A stretch of DNA of 25,414 nucleotides, taken from a virus. Made by a program: the position numbers and the translations under genes. The stretch spans positions 1 through 25,414 of IMG/VR virus record IMGVR_UViG_3300031715_000071, one strand, 5' to 3'. Below the pieces are notes generated by a model. The model ran no database searches. It saw only the letters and a program-made list of their open reading frames with translations, and was not told the origin of the DNA. This document shows, in pieces, positions 1,567 through 21,945 of this stretch (position 1 is the stretch's first letter; every line of letters starts with the position of its first letter).

Positions 1567-1867
1567 CCGACGCGTTTCCATGAACGAGCTTTTTGATGCG
1601 CTGCTAGGCCCATCAACGCCCGAAGAGAACAGTTTCATCTCGGACCTGACCTATCTCAACTATCAGCACAACCGGCAGATTACTCCGACAACGACACCCG
1701 AACAATGGGCCACCATCTACGGGCCGCGCACGATGGAGATGGAAGCGCGGTATCAGCGCGAAATGCACCGCGACGATGCGCCGGATTACGGGCTTGAGCG
1801 GATTCTGGCGGCAGACGAGCGCGGAGACGAGGACAGGGAATCAACCGAAGAGCTTCCGGGCCACTAA
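1556..1867 (+). CDS. Hypothetical acidic phage protein, 103 aa
   Basis: ATG 1556 follows GGAGGAAATGAG, a good ribosome binding site located within the end of the upstream gene (11-bp overlap). The protein is soluble and acidic toward its C-terminus (LAADERGDEDRESTEELPGH), with a Thr/Pro stretch (ITPTTTPEQW) in the middle. No recognised domain. It closes the cascade of coupled genes that starts at 768. Confidence 0.65.
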   Translation: MPNDRRVSMNELFDALLGPSTPEENSFISDLTYLNYQHNRQITPTTTPEQWATIYGPRTMEMEARYQREMHRDDAPDYGLERILAADERGDEDRESTEELPGH

Positions 1868-1890
1868 CCCGGAGGGGCAGGGACACAGGC

Positions 1891-1951
1891 CGGAGGCTGG
1901 AGCTACCGCGATTGCCCTGAACGCTCTCAGCGGCCTACCAGCCTCCGTTTT
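1891..1951 (+). other. Stem-loop plus T4 between gene blocks (leader structure or weak terminator)
   Basis: CGGAGGCTGG (1891-1900) and CCAGCCTCCG (1938-1947) are a perfect 10-bp inverted repeat, with an inner 4-bp stem CCGC/GCGG at 1906-1909 and 1930-1933. TTTT follows directly. The 37-nt loop is long for an intrinsic terminator, and the ribosome binding site of the next gene (AAAGGAG at 1954-1960) sits a few bases downstream. It may be a weak terminator or a structured leader. Confidence 0.45.
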
Positions 1952-1964
1952 CAAAGGAGAAAAT

Positions 1965-2744
1965 ATGGCAAGCACGGAAATCGTACCTGTAGACACGCAG
2001 CAATTTGAAGTCGGCCTAGCACGTCTCAAGCGGGAAGCCGATGCCATTGTCGTCAAAGACCAGCAAACCTACGTTGCTGCCTGCCAGATTGCCTTGGACG
2101 CTCGCTCCTACGTGAAGGACGTAAAGGGCAAGATGAATCCAGGGATCGTCAAGGCGAAAGCCCTTGTGGACTCGCTCAAGAACGATTTGTTCAAGTGGAT
2201 TACGCCAGCCGAGCAGATTGATTCCATTGTCTCCCAGAAGGCTGAGGCATGGAAGCGAGCCGAGCGAGAAGCGGCAGAGCGTGAGCGCCAACGGCTCCAA
2301 CGAGAAGCGGAAGCCAAGGCGCGAGAGGTTGCAGAAATGGAGCGCCGCATGGCGGAAGAACAAGCAAGATTCATGCGGGCGGAGCGCGAGAAGGAACTCG
2401 AAGCACAGCGCAAGGCCGGCGAGATTAATAAGCGCGAACAGGCGCGACTCGCCAAGATTGCTGCCGAGGAAGAGGCTGCGGCCAAGAAGCTCGCGGCAGA
2501 GCAAGCCGTACAAACTGCCGCAGCAGTGCCGGAGATTCGCGTTGAGCCATCGGTCCCGAAGGTTGCTGGTATCAAGGCGCGGGTGAACTGGAAGTTCCGC
2601 ATCGTGGACGCAAACAAGATTCCGCATCTGTTCTTGATGCCGGATGAGGTTGCTATCGGACAGGAAGTACGTCGGTTGAAGGACAAAGCTAAAGCCGAGG
2701 AAGTTATCCCCGGAATCGAGGTGTGGAGTGAAGACGGCATCTAA
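1965..2744 (+). CDS. Coiled-coil Bet/RecT-partner phage protein
   Basis: ATG 1965 is chosen over upstream in-frame codons because AAAGGAGAAAAT precedes it; 259 aa. Residues about 1-95 are helical, about 96-185 form a highly charged Glu/Arg/Ala coiled coil, and about 195-259 form a compact C-terminal domain with ARVNWKFRIVDANKIP and VIPGIEVWSEDGI. This C-terminal pattern (W-K-x-x-I/V-D ... I-P-G-x-x-V) is familiar from phage proteins encoded next to RecT or Bet annealases. The end overlaps bet by 17 bp. An accessory role in single-strand annealing recombination is inferred from position and the shared C-terminal pattern; no catalytic residues are visible. Confidence 0.75.
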   Translation: MASTEIVPVDTQQFEVGLARLKREADAIVVKDQQTYVAACQIALDARSYVKDVKGKMNPGIVKAKALVDSLKNDLFKWITPAEQIDSIVSQKAEAWKRAEREAAERERQRLQREAEAKAREVAEMERRMAEEQARFMRAEREKELEAQRKAGEINKREQARLAKIAAEEEAAAKKLAAEQAVQTAAAVPEIRVEPSVPKVAGIKARVNWKFRIVDANKIPHLFLMPDEVAIGQEVRRLKDKAKAEEVIPGIEVWSEDGI

Positions 2745-3792
2745 GCGCAGGGTGGTCACGAAAACGCGCCATATTCGCCCTCAGGCGGCAAAGGCTGCCA
2801 TCGTAGTGCGGCCTCCGACCGAAAAGCCGTGGCTGATACAGGCTGAGGAGCTTACTATCCTCAAAAACGCCATCTGTAAAGGAGCTACCGATGCAGAACT
2901 CCAATTCTGTCTAGCGGTTGCCCGAAGGCGAAAGTTGGACCCGTTCAAAGGACAAATCTGGTTCGTTCCACGCCGCGACCGTGGAGCGGATGACGGCGAA
3001 GGCGGGACCGGCGCGAAGGTCTGGATTCCCGTCGTAAGCATCGGAGGTCTGTGCCACGTCGGAGCGCGTGACCATAAAGACTACGGCTCATTCTCCGAGC
3101 CTCAATACGGACCGACTATCGAAGTCGAATGGCGGTACAAAGGGAACGGATCAGTGAAGAAGCTGAAAGTACCGGACTGGGCCAGCGTAGACGCATGGAA
3201 AAAGGGAGCGATTCATCCGACTGTCGGGAAGGTCTGGTGGAGCGAAATATACCCGAACATTGACTATGCTCCGATGGTGCGCCAGATGCCACGCCGGATG
3301 CTGGCGAAGTGCGCTCAGGCCCAAGCCATCAGACTTGCTTACCCGGAGACTGGCGGACTGTACATCCAAGAAGAAATGCAAGAGACGGGCGAGCCACAGT
3401 TCACGCCAGCGGGAAGGGTAATGACGCAAGTGAATCCACACGAGCAGAAGTACCTTGAGCGCGAGAAAGAGCAACTCGACATGCTGACGCCCGCGCAACG
3501 GGAAGTGGTAGAGCGGCGCATGAAAGAGGCCGAGGAAAAGAAGAATGCCCCGATTGACATTCAACCGCCGAAGGCCGACGCGCCGCCGTCTCTCTACTAC
3601 CGGTACTACCCCGAGAGTGAAACCTATAGGGTTGGCGGGTTTGCGTCACTGGTACGCGAGAATCAGGAGCTTCTAAAGCCTCTCTGGAATCCGATGGTCA
3701 AGAGCTACGTCGCTACGCCGTCGCAACTCGGGAAGCTAATCTCGCAATTCGAGAGAGCCAAGGTACCATTCCGCGAGGCCAAGGATGCCTAG
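2728..3792 (+). CDS. bet: Bet/RecT-family single-strand annealing recombinase
   Basis: GTG 2728 starts inside the end of the upstream gene, with GAGG a few bases before; 354 aa. Hallmarks of the lambda Bet branch of RecT: a helix then RRRKLDPFKGQIWFVPR (residues about 67-82), VWIPVVSIGG (98-107), a beta-rich core, and MPRRMLAKCAQAQAIRLAYP (187-206). Bet binds single-stranded DNA and anneals complementary strands, usually with a phage exonuclease; no obvious exonuclease gene lies in this window. After about residue 220 there is a charged linker and an extra C-terminal segment (residues about 285-354, beginning LYYRYYPESETYRVGGF). This makes it longer than lambda Bet (261 aa) and may be a partner- or DNA-binding add-on. 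Confidence 0.92.
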   Translation: MKTASKRRVVTKTRHIRPQAAKAAIVVRPPTEKPWLIQAEELTILKNAICKGATDAELQFCLAVARRRKLDPFKGQIWFVPRRDRGADDGEGGTGAKVWIPVVSIGGLCHVGARDHKDYGSFSEPQYGPTIEVEWRYKGNGSVKKLKVPDWASVDAWKKGAIHPTVGKVWWSEIYPNIDYAPMVRQMPRRMLAKCAQAQAIRLAYPETGGLYIQEEMQETGEPQFTPAGRVMTQVNPHEQKYLEREKEQLDMLTPAQREVVERRMKEAEEKKNAPIDIQPPKADAPPSLYYRYYPESETYRVGGFASLVRENQELLKPLWNPMVKSYVATPSQLGKLISQFERAKVPFREAKDA

Positions 3793-9246: not shown

Positions 9247-9728
9247 GCGGCAACTATCGTTATGGAATGACATGCTACATCTGCGGGTATTTTGAGAGTG
9301 GCATGCGCTACCTGCCACACGAAAGTTCACAGTTTTTCTGTCATAAGCACAGTACACAAGAAACATTAGAGTGGCAATGTACGCCAGCCAGTGACCTTGT
9401 CCCGTCAGTTCCTAATGACGTGAAGCACGTAAAGCACGGCCCGGCGGGAGCCGTACAAGATTCCCGCCATGATGTTTTAGCAATTCGCTGCATGGAGCAC
9501 AGGGACATTCCGCCACTAAACAAGAACGAAGCATCGGGAGCAGAGTGTCCGATTTGCGCCATGCAGAGTATGCCTCCGACGCCAGACCCCGGATGCTGCG
9601 TGCGTTGCAACGCTCCGCGCGAGAGCACGATTCACGACACCGCGAGCAGGAACACAGAGATTCGCATGGCGGCGCATCACTTCATCCCGCCACCCGCCCA
9701 GAGCGGCAAGGGGAGCGAGGAGAGATGA
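9243..9728 (+). CDS. Multi-CxxC zinc-binding protein, 161 aa
   Basis: ATG 9243 follows CCAGGAGGAGAAGA and overlaps the previous stop. The N-terminal domain has MTCYICGYF and FFCHKHST; the C-terminal domain has CPICAMQ and GCCVRCNAPRE with nearby His. At least two zinc sites are likely. The end encodes PPPAQS from the second copy of a 19-bp repeat. It resembles a fusion of two small zinc-ribbon units like those of its neighbours. It overlaps the next gene by 4 bp. Confidence 0.65.
   Translation: MSGNYRYGMTCYICGYFESGMRYLPHESSQFFCHKHSTQETLEWQCTPASDLVPSVPNDVKHVKHGPAGAVQDSRHDVLAIRCMEHRDIPPLNKNEASGAECPICAMQSMPPTPDPGCCVRCNAPRESTIHDTASRNTEIRMAAHHFIPPPAQSGKGSEER
9686..9704 (+). repeat. 19-bp direct repeat, copy 2
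   Basis: Perfect copy of 9210-9228, placed 20 bp before the ATGAGC of the acetyltransferase-like gene. The pair brackets one complete gene (9243-9728), as expected if the gene was gained or duplicated as a cassette through short homologies. Confidence 0.9.
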
Positions 9729-10177
9729 GCCGATTGCAGCTAGTTCCTGTGACTCTGGCAGAGGCCAACGAGTTCGTGCGTCAGCACCACAGACACCATA
9801 AGCCAGTGCCGGGAGCGAAGTTCTGCATAGGAGTGAGCGACGGAGAGAAAATTTGCGGAATAGCTATTGTTGGTCGGCCAGTTGCGCGAATGACTGATGA
9901 CGGTTGGACGCTTGAAGTCAACCGGACCTGCACAGACGGCACAAGGAACGCAAATTCGATGCTCTACGGAGCGTGCCAGAGAGCGGCTTGGGCTTTGGGA
10001 TTCCGAAAATTGATTACTTATACGCTGCCGGAAGAGGGAGGGGCGAGCCTTAGAGGGTCCGGTTTCCGGCTAGTTGGCACGGCTGGCGGCGGCTCGTGGA
10101 GCAGGACAAGTCGGCCAAGAGTTGATACACACCCGTTGCAGCAAAAGATTCGCTGGGAAGCGGCGGCAGCCCACTAA
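9725..10177 (+). CDS. XF1762-family acetyltransferase-like phage protein
   Basis: ATG 9725 follows GGGGAGCGAGGAG and overlaps the previous stop; 150 aa. It matches the family called XF1762, which has a GNAT-like fold and is common in phages and prophages: VTLAEANEFVRQHHRHHKPV near the N-terminus, CGIAIVGRPVAR, LEVNRTCTDGTRNANSMLYG in the middle, LITYTLPEEGGASLRGSGF, and SWSRTSRPRVDTHPLQQKI at the end. The biochemical role is not established; acyl transfer to a small molecule or protein is inferred from the fold. A short GC hairpin follows the stop. Confidence 0.88.
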   Translation: MSRLQLVPVTLAEANEFVRQHHRHHKPVPGAKFCIGVSDGEKICGIAIVGRPVARMTDDGWTLEVNRTCTDGTRNANSMLYGACQRAAWALGFRKLITYTLPEEGGASLRGSGFRLVGTAGGGSWSRTSRPRVDTHPLQQKIRWEAAAAH

Positions 10178-13517: not shown

Positions 13518-13904
13518 GTGAATATAAACATTCAACCGGAATCAAAACAATCAAGACACGGTGGAAAGCGCAAGGGCGCTGGCCGCAAAACTGGAACCAT
13601 TGAGCGCGTAACGCTTGCGAAAATGGCCGTTGCCGAGCGTGTGTTCGATTACGTCAGCCAGAAAACAGGACAATCCATCGTTGATCTGTGGTTTCCTCTG
13701 GTAACTTCCGACGAACCGCTTGTACGCATCAAGGCGCTTTCGTACATGACAGACCGCTTAGAAGGGAAAGCGCGTGAAACGATTGTGCATACAGGCGACA
13801 TCAATCACCATCTGACCGAAACGGACCGCGCCGCCGCGCAGCAAACCATCCAAAAGCTACTCACGCCCGCAATAGACGTAGAGGCGAAAGAGGTAATTCA
13901 GTGA
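13518..13904 (+). CDS. Probable terminase small subunit
   Basis: GTG 13518 is the first usable start after the upstream stop; an AAGGAG lies about 25 nt upstream, too far to be ideal. The product (128 aa) has the basic entry SRHGGKRKGAGRKTGT typical of DNA-binding N-termini of small terminases, then helices (AKMAVAERVFDYVSQKTGQS; RIKALSYMTDRLEGKARETI). Small terminases recognise phage DNA and feed it to the large subunit. Position before the chaperone-like gene and large terminase supports the call, but the basic entry alone also occurs in other phage proteins. It overlaps the next gene by 4 bp. Confidence 0.65.
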   Translation: MNINIQPESKQSRHGGKRKGAGRKTGTIERVTLAKMAVAERVFDYVSQKTGQSIVDLWFPLVTSDEPLVRIKALSYMTDRLEGKARETIVHTGDINHHLTETDRAAAQQTIQKLLTPAIDVEAKEVIQ

Positions 13905-14455
13905 CCGTAGATTCGGACCGTTACTTTGCGTGCATCGAGGCGGTTGAGAACATCTTCCACGCTGGCCCCATCGGTTTCGAGGCGTTGTTCGATAAAATCC
14001 TGGTCGTAGAGGACGAATTCCGTTCCGGCTACGAATGCGACACCTGTTCCGCCACAGGCTCTATCGTCTGTGCGGAATGCAAAGGTACGGGCAAGAGCTT
14101 CGTGAACGAGAAAATCACCTGCAAAGCCTGCCACGGAGTAACTACGCTCTCTTGTCCTGACTGCAAGGGAAAGGGCGTATTCCTCGATATTCCCGATGTA
14201 GCGAAGAATCGTCCCACGACCGGCGAAGTGAAAAGCATCGGCAGCGAGACGGTCACTCTCAAGCGTGGAGACCGGGTCATCTACCCTAGCTTCTGCGGCG
14301 AAGTAATGGACCTGAACGGCGTAGACCCGAAAACAGGCAAAGAGGTAAAGGTTGTGATTCGGATGCTGCGCGAGAAAGAAGTCATAGGGCGCGTAACCGG
14401 CAAGCCGATGGACCTACGCCGCATCAACAAGCAAGAGTTTCAGACGACAGGCTGA
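13901..14455 (+). CDS. GroES-like co-chaperonin with DnaJ-type zinc module in the mobile loop
   Basis: GTG 13901 overlaps the previous stop (GTGA); 184 aa. The GroES-like fold is split: FDKILVVEDE (30-39) resembles the first GroES strand (HDRVIVKRKE); GVFLDIPDVAKNRPTTGEV (92-110) resembles the strand after the mobile loop; LKRGDRVIYPSFCGEV (120-135) and EVKVVIRMLREKEVIGRV (148-165) match the GDxVIF and IM-E-x-x-I-L-A ends. Between the first two parts, where GroES has its GroEL-binding loop, lie four CxxC motifs: C46/C49, C57/C60 (CAECKGTG), C74/C77 and C85/C88 (CPDCKGKG), like the DnaJ Cys-rich domain that binds two zinc ions. It lies between the terminase genes. A role in capsid or terminase folding is inferred. 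Confidence 0.75.
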   Translation: MTVDSDRYFACIEAVENIFHAGPIGFEALFDKILVVEDEFRSGYECDTCSATGSIVCAECKGTGKSFVNEKITCKACHGVTTLSCPDCKGKGVFLDIPDVAKNRPTTGEVKSIGSETVTLKRGDRVIYPSFCGEVMDLNGVDPKTGKEVKVVIRMLREKEVIGRVTGKPMDLRRINKQEFQTTG

Positions 14456-16095
14456 TGCGTTGGAAGCCTCTCGAACTCAAAGGCGAGCCTGAGCTGGACC
14501 AGGCTGCCATACGCCTCAACTCTCTTGGTTCGCTGTTCTACTTCATCCGCTTTACTCTCAAGCGCAACAAGCTCTCCGAAATTCACCGGCGCGTCTGTGC
14601 GTCTCTTGAACGCACCAATCTGCGGTTAGTCCTAGAACTCCCGCGCTGGCACTACAAGACCACGATGGTAGCCGAGGGCTTGCCGATGTGGTGGGCCTTG
14701 CCATTTACGGCCAAAGACGAATTTATGATGCGAGAGCTGGGCTATGACGATTCCTGGATACGTTGGATGCGTTACGCCCATGATGCGGACACTTCAACGC
14801 TCTTGATTGCTGAGACGGAGAAGAACACGATACTCAACGGCGTGCTGGTAGACCATCACTACCAGAACAATGATCTATTCCGCTGGGTATTCCCTGAGAT
14901 TATCCCGGACGGCACAACGACTTGGAACAACGAGATTAAGATTCACAGGAGGACGACGTATGGAGCAAGCATCCGAAAAGAGGGTACTTATCACTATCGA
15001 GGTGTTGGACAGGCCGTCACGGGTCTTCACCCTGCTAGAGCGATTGAGGATGATTTATTCGGTCTGGAAGCTCAGCAGTCGGAAGCAGTGGCCGAAGCAA
15101 CAATTCGCTACCACAGGATGCTTGGCGGTGTTATCGGAAGCGGAGACAACGTCGTTGATGGGAATAGATGGTCGGTATCTGACTTGGATGGATGGATCAG
15201 GGAGAACGACAAGACTTTTGCTATAGAATCCCACTCCGCCGAAGGAGGATGCTGCGATGAACACCCTGCGGGTCAGGCTCTTTTCCCAGAAGAATGGCCT
15301 CTCGATAAGCTGCACTACCAGCGCCAACGTATGGGTGATTACGATTATTCTCACCAGTTCCTCAACATTCCCGTTCTTGAGGGCGACTGTGTATTCAAGC
15401 CGGAGTGGCTTAGAGAATATCGCTTCAAAGCCTCTAATCCAAGCTTGGCGCTGGACGATCCCATGAACTTTCTGTTCATCGAGCACGAAGTAGTTGGCGG
15501 AAAGGTCATCCCCGACTTCCCCTGCAACGCACTAGAACTTCGCATGGTGATAGACCCGAACCACGCCGGCAAGAAAGGGCGCTGCCGCCACGCGATAACC
15601 GTCACGTGCTTGGACACCGAGACGGACAATCTCTATTTGCTGGACGTGTGGTCCAAAGCCTGCGGATATAGCGAGTTTGTCGAGGAAATCTACCGCATGG
15701 GCGCGAAGTGGGGATTGCGTGAGGCATGGCTGGAAACCGTTGCGGCACAAAAGTATCTCAAGTTCTACCTGGATGAGAAGAACCTGAGAGTGAAGCGTCC
15801 TATTCTGTTCCGCGAGTTGCCAAACGACAACAGGGCGAACGCGAAGGATCGGAGAATCGAAGCTCTTGAGCCAATCTTCCGCAATGGCAATTTCTGGCAT
15901 CATCCAAGCCACACGGAGTTCCGAAAGGAATTCATCGGTTACTATAGGGGAAAGCAAGTAGACGTAGACATTCTCGATACAGTTTCGTACTCCCCGCAGC
16001 TTTATGAAGTAGTACGACGCAAAGACGTAAATCAACGACTCAGGCAGCGAGCGGCTGATTTCGCTGGCCGTGTAACTTCTGCAACTGGCTATTGA
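14455..16095 (+). CDS. terL: Terminase large subunit
   Basis: ATG 14455 overlaps the upstream TGA by one base; 546 aa. The ATPase has a Walker A-like loop LPRWHYKTTMV (62-72), in which His-Tyr replace the more usual Gly before Lys-Thr, and a Walker B AIEDDLF (196-202). The nuclease half has MVIDPNH (364-370), an acidic strand LREAWLETV (421-429) and a late Asp in VDVDILDTVSY, as in RNase H-fold terminase nucleases. It pumps DNA into the prohead through the portal and cuts the concatemer. Short gap to the portal gene. Confidence 0.93.
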   Translation: MRWKPLELKGEPELDQAAIRLNSLGSLFYFIRFTLKRNKLSEIHRRVCASLERTNLRLVLELPRWHYKTTMVAEGLPMWWALPFTAKDEFMMRELGYDDSWIRWMRYAHDADTSTLLIAETEKNTILNGVLVDHHYQNNDLFRWVFPEIIPDGTTTWNNEIKIHRRTTYGASIRKEGTYHYRGVGQAVTGLHPARAIEDDLFGLEAQQSEAVAEATIRYHRMLGGVIGSGDNVVDGNRWSVSDLDGWIRENDKTFAIESHSAEGGCCDEHPAGQALFPEEWPLDKLHYQRQRMGDYDYSHQFLNIPVLEGDCVFKPEWLREYRFKASNPSLALDDPMNFLFIEHEVVGGKVIPDFPCNALELRMVIDPNHAGKKGRCRHAITVTCLDTETDNLYLLDVWSKACGYSEFVEEIYRMGAKWGLREAWLETVAAQKYLKFYLDEKNLRVKRPILFRELPNDNRANAKDRRIEALEPIFRNGNFWHHPSHTEFRKEFIGYYRGKQVDVDILDTVSYSPQLYEVVRRKDVNQRLRQRAADFAGRVTSATGY

Positions 16096-19881: not shown

Positions 19882-20343
19882 ATGAACCATACTGGCACAT
19901 TCTTCGACCGCGTTAGCTTGGATTTAAACACCGGCTGCTGGAATTGGATGCGGTCGAAATGTTCCAAGGGATACGGAACCGTGAGATTTCGTGGAGTTAC
20001 GGCGTCGGCGCATCGCGTTTCCGCGGTACTGTTCAAGAATTTTGATTTCGACTCAGAATTGCAAGTCTGCCATACATGCGACAATCCTGCCTGTGTCAAT
20101 CCTAAGCACTTGTTTTACGGGACCAATTCGGACAATCAACAGGATTCCGTATCCAAGGGACGCCATTGGGCGGTAAAAGCAACCCACTGTCCTAAAGGCC
20201 ATGCTTATGAAGGAGACAATTTGTATTTGCCTCCTAGCGGACAGAGATGTTGCAGGGCTTGCCGAAGAGAATCTTCGATCCAATTGGCCGCTAAAAGAAA
20301 GATGGCCAGACGAATGAATAAGATAAACAAGGAGATAAACTAA
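19882..20343 (+). CDS. Free-standing HNH endonuclease
   Basis: ATG 19882 begins directly at the previous stop; 153 aa. The HNH core is clear: SAHRVSAVL (42-50), [20 protein letters not shown] (61-80) and TNSDNQQD (81-88), with His64, Asn73 and His76 in typical places. A second zinc unit follows (CPKGHAYE, then CCRACRRES) and a basic tail. Such genes often sit between phage structural genes and spread by cutting DNA that lacks them. Its position between virion genes fits a mobile insertion. No intron was seen. Confidence 0.9.
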
Positions 20344-20985: not shown

Positions 20986-21945
20986 TTGAATAATTTGAGC
21001 AGCAGGAACACTTTTCCGCCACTGCTTGCGCGGGGCTTGAAGCATATCTTTTTCGAGGCGACGGACCTCACGATGCGCGACGCGCAGTACACGCGCTACA
21101 TGAACGTCGAATCGAGCGAGGATGCCTACGAAATTGACTACCACATCGCCGGAACGGGACCGATGCCGATTATGCCGGAAGGCACGCGACCCGCATACGA
21201 TGGGCTGGTTCAATCGGGCACCAAGAAATATCTACACCTGCCCTACGGCCTTGCCTCGCAAGTCACCAGGCAGCTCGTTGAGGACGACAAGTACGGAATC
21301 ATTCGCCAGATTCCGAAGGCGCATGGCCGTTCTGCGCTGTTTGCACGCGAGGCGGTCTGCGCTTCGATCCTGAACCTTGGCGGGACGCTTATCACGGTTG
21401 ACGACGGTCTGTCTCTGTTCAACACCGCCCACACGCTACCGGGCGGCACCGAGGCGACCAGCATCGGACCGGGACTTTCAAACATCGTCAACGCTGCGGG
21501 TACTTATCCGAACCGGCCCAGCCCCGATGCGGACTTTTCCTTCACCAGCTTGCAGCAGGCCATCAACTACTTCTATCGGTTCGTGGACGGGCGCGGTATT
21601 CCTTCGATGCTCCGGCCCAAGACCGTTTTCCTTCCGCCAGAACTCATCATGATTGGCCGCGAAATTCTCGGTTCTCCGGGCAAGCCGTACACGATGGACA
21701 ACGAGCTGAACGCCTTGCAGGGCGAGAATCTGGAATTCCAGCACTTGAACTATCTGACTAGCCCAAGCGCTTGGTTCCTTTTCGCCGCAAAGGATGAAAC
21801 CCAACTCAAGTTCTACGACCGCGTTCCGATTCAGGCGCAGACCGACGATGACTTCCAGACTCAGGTGCTGATATTCTTGACCACACAGCGATTCAGCGCC
21901 GGCGCAACGAACTGGATTGGTACATTCGGTTCATTCGGACCCTGA
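20986..21945 (+). CDS. Major capsid protein (HK97 fold, Mu gpT-like features)
   Basis: TTG 20986 follows TTAAGGAGACACGACC; 319 aa. Features that fit a major head protein: an N-terminal helix with FFEATDLTMRDAQYTRYMNV, EDAYEIDYHIAGTGPMP, a helix before LGGTLITVDDGLSLFNTAHTL, RPKTVFLPPELIMIGREILG, and an aromatic end TQRFSAGATNWIGTFGSFGP. The LFNTAHT/PPEL layout recalls the Mu gpT-type head proteins. It would form the icosahedral shell. Support is order, length and these patterns. Confidence 0.8.
   Translation: MNNLSSRNTFPPLLARGLKHIFFEATDLTMRDAQYTRYMNVESSEDAYEIDYHIAGTGPMPIMPEGTRPAYDGLVQSGTKKYLHLPYGLASQVTRQLVEDDKYGIIRQIPKAHGRSALFAREAVCASILNLGGTLITVDDGLSLFNTAHTLPGGTEATSIGPGLSNIVNAAGTYPNRPSPDADFSFTSLQQAINYFYRFVDGRGIPSMLRPKTVFLPPELIMIGREILGSPGKPYTMDNELNALQGENLEFQHLNYLTSPSAWFLFAAKDETQLKFYDRVPIQAQTDDDFQTQVLIFLTTQRFSAGATNWIGTFGSFGP

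Follow-up and report, generated by a model that had tools for sequence, protein, structure and literature searches.

A 184-residue protein encoded directly before the large terminase gene of a virus record raises the question of whether a GroES fold can carry a DnaJ-type cysteine module in its mobile loop and, if so, with which partner such a protein would work. The original prediction read the product as a GroES fold that is cut after its first strand and then resumed, with the module at the exact place of the loop that docks on GroEL. The stretch of DNA analysed here, referred to as the window, comprises 25,414 nt of IMG/VR virus record IMGVR_UViG_3300031715_000071, and all coordinates are in window numbering. 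The features are as follows.

13518–13904, plus strand: upstream gene, 128 aa, the stop of which overlaps the co-chaperonin start via GTGA.
13890–13893, plus strand: Shine-Dalgarno-like GAGG, 7 nt ahead of the GTG, as read from the sequence.
13901–14455, plus strand: gene for a Cpn10 co-chaperonin with putative zinc arms, 184 aa, GTG start at 13901 and TGA stop at 14453–14455.
13994–14011, plus strand: first barrel strand KILVVE, residues 32–37, equivalent to DRVIVK of GroES.
14030–14176, plus strand: DnaJ/BSD2-type cysteine module, residues 44–92, an insertion into the mobile loop's N-terminal arm; an empty site in some relatives.
14036–14047, plus strand: CxxC motif I, C46–C49; C46 is present in 71 of 71 relatives with a complete module.
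14069–14080, plus strand: CxxC motif II, C57–C60, absent jointly with motif III in relatives with one putative zinc site.
14120–14131, plus strand: CxxC motif III, C74–C77, absent jointly with motif II in the same relatives.
14153–14164, plus strand: CxxC motif IV, C85–C88, retained alongside motif I in the same relatives.
14183–14191, plus strand: residues 95–97, L-D-I, equivalent to the GroEL-docking tripeptide I-V-L of GroES.
14192–14392, plus strand: remainder of the Cpn10 barrel, residues 98–164, from the Pfam match, the AlphaFold2 model and Foldseek.
14240–14269, plus strand: shortened roof-hairpin position, residues 114–123, where two relatives (L156 and L159) carry a second putative zinc module.
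14455–16095, plus strand: large terminase (TerL; PHROG 38, E 8.4e-48), the ATG of which overlaps the co-chaperonin stop via TGATG.

The ORF at 13901–14455 is a real gene. It had been placed between the small and the large terminase genes; the downstream neighbour is indeed TerL, whereas Pfam/PHROG-type profile searches gave no support for a small-terminase identity of the upstream gene, so that this placement is only half shown. Elsewhere in the window, a Mom-like DNA modification protein (PHROG 1384, E 2.3e-37) is encoded at 9545–10177, and an HNH endonuclease gene (PHROG 826) lies between the portal and major capsid genes at 19882–20343.

The Cpn10 fold was examined by profile search and structure prediction. 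The whole window protein matched Pfam Cpn10 (PF00166) over residues 97–141 with 26.3 bits, above the cut-off of 21.1. When residues 44–89 were omitted, the score rose to 31.7 bits and the match widened to profile positions 3–79; because the match grows to profile position 3 without the module, residues 30–39 are the first strand of the same Cpn10 domain. In the family set A4, 30 of 31 members matched Cpn10 at E up to 0.1, and searching of the family profile against solved structures retrieved co-chaperonins, with a best E of 4e-18. An AlphaFold2 model built from 31 relatives had a pLDDT of 84, and both barrel and module exceeded 90 over most of their length; an earlier run with four sequences (pLDDT 38) was set aside. 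Foldseek matched the modelled beta-barrel to Mycobacterium tuberculosis (Mtb) Cpn10, H. thermophilus GroES and T4 gp31 (1p3h, 8wuw and 1g31; E 2e-4 to 9e-4), and against a viral library the best named matches were nearly all phage GroES proteins. The predicted split of the GroES fold is thus borne out by a modelled barrel and by a module that lies at the mobile-loop position.

The eight cysteines span residues 46–88 and separate the first barrel strand from the remainder of the barrel, which places them at the mobile-loop position. They had been described as four CxxC units with GTG/GKG tails resembling the DnaJ cysteine-rich domain. The four CxxC units were confirmed and their BSD2/DnaJ-type character is supported, but only units II and IV of the window protein (two of four) carry the full CxxCxGxG, which is complete in 161 of 267 units family-wide. 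The DnaJ_CXXCXGXG profile (PF00684) did match the module, with 19.9 bits for the whole protein and 21.3 bits for the module alone, but below its cut-off of 32.7; the BSD2-type zinc finger profile BSD2_CRD (PF25436) also stayed below its cut-off (24.3 bits vs 27). Foldseek matched the modelled module to BSD2 (6ekc/6ekb; E 0.01–0.02, probability 1.00), and the family profile over the module only gave E values of 8e-7 for BSD2 and 1.8e-5 for the DnaJ zinc domain. Neither a J domain nor an HPD motif was found in the 184 aa by profile search and sequence reading. The suggested joining of GroES and DnaJ jobs in one protein is possible and stays putative.

It is known that the I-V-L tripeptide of GroES contacts GroEL helices H and I (PMC3514286). 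Directly after the module, a G-hydrophobic-hydrophobic-hydrophobic-P segment equivalent to GroES G24-I25-V26-L27 is kept family-wide, with a hydrophobic residue at position 95 in 74 of 74 relatives, at position 96 in 88% and at position 97 in 91%. The conservation of this segment after the module implies that the module was added to the loop and that the docking edge was not replaced. Consequently, the module does sit at the mobile-loop position but occupies only its N-terminal arm, and the earlier proposal that it replaces the docking loop, so that the partner could change, is not supported, given the segment straight after it. The window tripeptide L-D-I has a charged middle residue, unlike most relatives, and this residue could weaken GroEL binding. 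The roof hairpin is absent in nearly all members: the window protein has 9 residues from G114 to G123, and most relatives have ~9–15. Roof loops are likewise missing from T4 gp31, whose mobile loop is longer and which acts with host GroEL (PMC6318259), and a missing roof therefore does not exclude a phage co-chaperonin.

Relatives were gathered by scanning IMG/VR, first for the neighbouring TerL and then for the co-chaperonin itself. The scan yielded ~85 distinct related proteins, and the design with a putative zinc module was common to ~70 uncultured viruses. In three relatives (L112:4094–4993, L113:4107–5006 and L115:4100–4936), the Cpn10 barrel is preceded by ~130 additional residues at the N-terminus. 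By tblastn and further searches, the annotated phage collection yielded no complete member. The best tblastn match there, L001 (LR756504.1, a phage record of >600 kb), encodes at 1768–3459 a 563-aa protein that ends in a long DnaJ-type CxxC run; this is only a multi-CxxC protein without the split order of the family, and it was rejected as a relative. A GTDB-based contig scan gave 44 matches, and the six inspected were DnaJ or DnaJ-like repeat proteins. One match, to residues 46–162 (L006), was a 539-aa DnaJ-finger protein and not a Cpn10; this Succinivibrionaceae contig carries adjacent paralogues at 71–1690 and 1783–3165, longer proteins that include a DnaJ-type four-CxxC module. In 398 genomes of one bacterial phylum, searched with the family profile and without a positive control, none was found.

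Module cysteines were counted in those 74 relatives whose loop is complete: there are 0 in 3 relatives, 4 in 6, 8 in 59, 9 in 5 and 10 in 1, so that 68 of the 74 have exactly 0, 4 or 8. The four-cysteine forms, for example L061 and L078, retain the first and last CxxC; these two belong to different TerL-tree branches, and L078 adjoins an eight-cysteine row. Other spacings occur in the II/III pair of some relatives. In DnaJ, the zinc sites are nested, motif I pairing with IV and II with III. Forms that keep the first and last CxxC fit such nested pairing, and the motif order suggests that the putative I–IV zinc site additionally holds the loop together at its base. In two relatives on separate TerL-tree branches (L156:2947–3768 and L159:5049–5729), an extra four-cysteine module of a CxxC pair is located exactly at the roof-hairpin position.

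Seven relatives (L190, L191, L192, L258, L259, L262 and L263) lack the module and are typical Cpn10s, and from their sequences they represent a natural empty site. Alignment of EDPFKYEGLIKIPDTAQRRPTTG (module-free) with EDEFRSGYEC...GKGVFLDIPDVAKNRPTTG places the join between YE and G. The three module-free rows with TerL nest among module-bearing rows, which would favour loss of the module over gain; however, the TerL trees have very long outgroup branches and weak rooting. The dN/dS of close pairs was ~0.03–0.08 for the barrel and ~0–0.08 for the module where dS was estimable, with one module outlier of 0.17 (L079–L143); in more distant pairs, the module apart from its cysteines diverges faster than the barrel. 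These values indicate that barrel and module are both under purifying selection. Given that the eight-cysteine pattern recurs across the family and that the dN/dS of close pairs is ~0.03–0.08 in module and barrel alike, the pattern is not due to chance.

Taken together, the window protein is probably a gp31-like Cpn10/GroES phage co-chaperonin that is used with host GroEL to fold phage proteins and that carries putative zinc arms. This reading builds on the architecture, its conservation, the quantised cysteines, the kept docking segment and the missing roof, as sequence and model present them. Host GroEL is the likely partner. A search of 37 related contigs, which are fragments, turned up no Cpn60 (GroEL) gene, and all 14 control genomes gave a match; because the contigs may be incomplete, this absence is not proof of host GroEL use. 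The protein would form a heptamer and dock on host GroEL via residues 93–97, and such a docked heptamer would place seven arms, each with predicted zinc binding, at the rim of the lid chamber. The arms would most likely make direct protein contacts, either holding a client of the phage, from the capsid or the packaging machinery, much as BSD2 and the DnaJ zinc domain do with their clients, or gripping the GroEL apical domain. In this reading, a gp31-like lid is joined to a BSD2-like holding module. An insertion in the mobile loop is physically plausible, as engineered human Cpn10 tolerates foreign peptides in this loop and can stay heptameric (PMC5118791). Against this explanation, the window L-D-I is charged and the module scores under the Pfam cut-offs for DnaJ and BSD2. 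In addition, the major capsid protein here, encoded at 20986–21945, has only 319 aa and hence does not obviously call for an enlarged cage of the kind used for T4 gp23.

A more specific form of the co-chaperonin reading, which we put forward tentatively, is a modular lid in which DnaJ/BSD2-type client-holding modules were placed in GroES loops (the mobile loop in most of the family and the roof in at least two lineages), so that one protein would both hold the client and close the GroEL chamber over it. It is also conceivable, although rather unlikely, that the module is purely structural and has no client contact, tying the mobile-loop arms together, cutting the entropic cost of loop ordering on GroEL and thereby tuning lid affinity. 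Such a staple would account for the retention of motifs I and IV, which stand at both ends of the inserted loop, in relatives with one putative zinc site, for the module sequence apart from the cysteines varying more than the barrel in several pairs, and for the complete absence of the module in some relatives. However, the one-zinc form would suffice for this role, yet at least 8 cysteines are present in 65 of 74 relatives, and the roof, a site that does not dock, bears an additional module in two lineages.

The position of the gene brings in a third explanation, in which the GroES fold was re-used for terminase or portal assembly and GroEL binding was lost. The gene stands directly before TerL and overlaps its start, in most TerL-lineage contigs with both genes it is found on the TerL strand, at most ~2.2 kb upstream, and the charged residue in the window docking tripeptide would suit such a loss. 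However, in L109 and L188–L192 the gene is remote from TerL or oppositely oriented, and in a second lineage (L166–L186) it follows the DNA polymerase and primase genes in the three contigs examined (L170, L171 and L178); terminase linkage is therefore not general. As the docking segment is also hydrophobic family-wide and module-free relatives are ordinary Cpn10s, we consider a packaging factor improbable. Least probable is a redox-active lid, with the four DnaJ-type CxxC pairs working as a thiol-disulfide device or an oxidative switch. Such roles have been reported for DnaJ and ZnJ6, and thiol activity is known for DnaJ-type zinc fingers (PMC4428491; PMC7865324). However, the cysteines occur in sets of four, as zinc sites would lead one to expect, and the II/III pair is spaced differently in some relatives.

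The window protein is a Cpn10 as judged by profile and modelled fold, and no earlier description of a GroES whose mobile loop carries a zinc module was found in the open-access literature searched. The GroES mobile loop sets the grip on and the release of GroEL. A natural series of loops with none, one or two putative zinc sites, together with a third site in the roof, would offer a ready means to test the influence of loop order and lid appendages on the chaperonin cycle and client choice. The family may represent a phage route to redirect host GroEL beyond that of T4 gp31, and it would provide a natural precedent for display scaffolds on the Cpn10 loop.

Among known systems, chloroplast Cpn20 (7ekq) gave the best sequence match of the family profile mentioned above (4e-18), but it consists of two plain Cpn10 domains in tandem. 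The module resembles the DnaJ cysteine-rich domain (PF00684, 1exk) in its four CxxC motifs, which are mostly CxxCxGxG family-wide and have an order consistent with I–IV and II–III pairing, whereas the window protein has no J domain, G/F region or DnaJ C-terminal domains, its spacing is shorter and its score is below the Pfam cut-off. BSD2 and other DnaJ-like zinc-finger proteins without a J domain (6ekb/6ekc) likewise have four CxxC in ~45 residues and match the module in fold, but the module, at 24.3 vs 27 bits, is inserted within another chaperone and is not a free protein. With bacterial GroES/Cpn10 (PF00166), the window protein shares the barrel, the C-terminal strand pattern and a Pfam score above the cut-off, while the hydrophobic docking segment is shared at the level of the family, and it differs in having the mobile-loop module and extra C-terminal residues and in lacking the roof hairpin. 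T4 gp31 (1g31) is likewise a phage-encoded Cpn10 fold with no roof hairpin, an enlarged mobile loop and host GroEL as the likely partner, with ~15% identity to the window protein over the structural match; however, the gp31 loop has 22 residues and no zinc, whereas that of the window protein has ~65 residues and eight cysteines.
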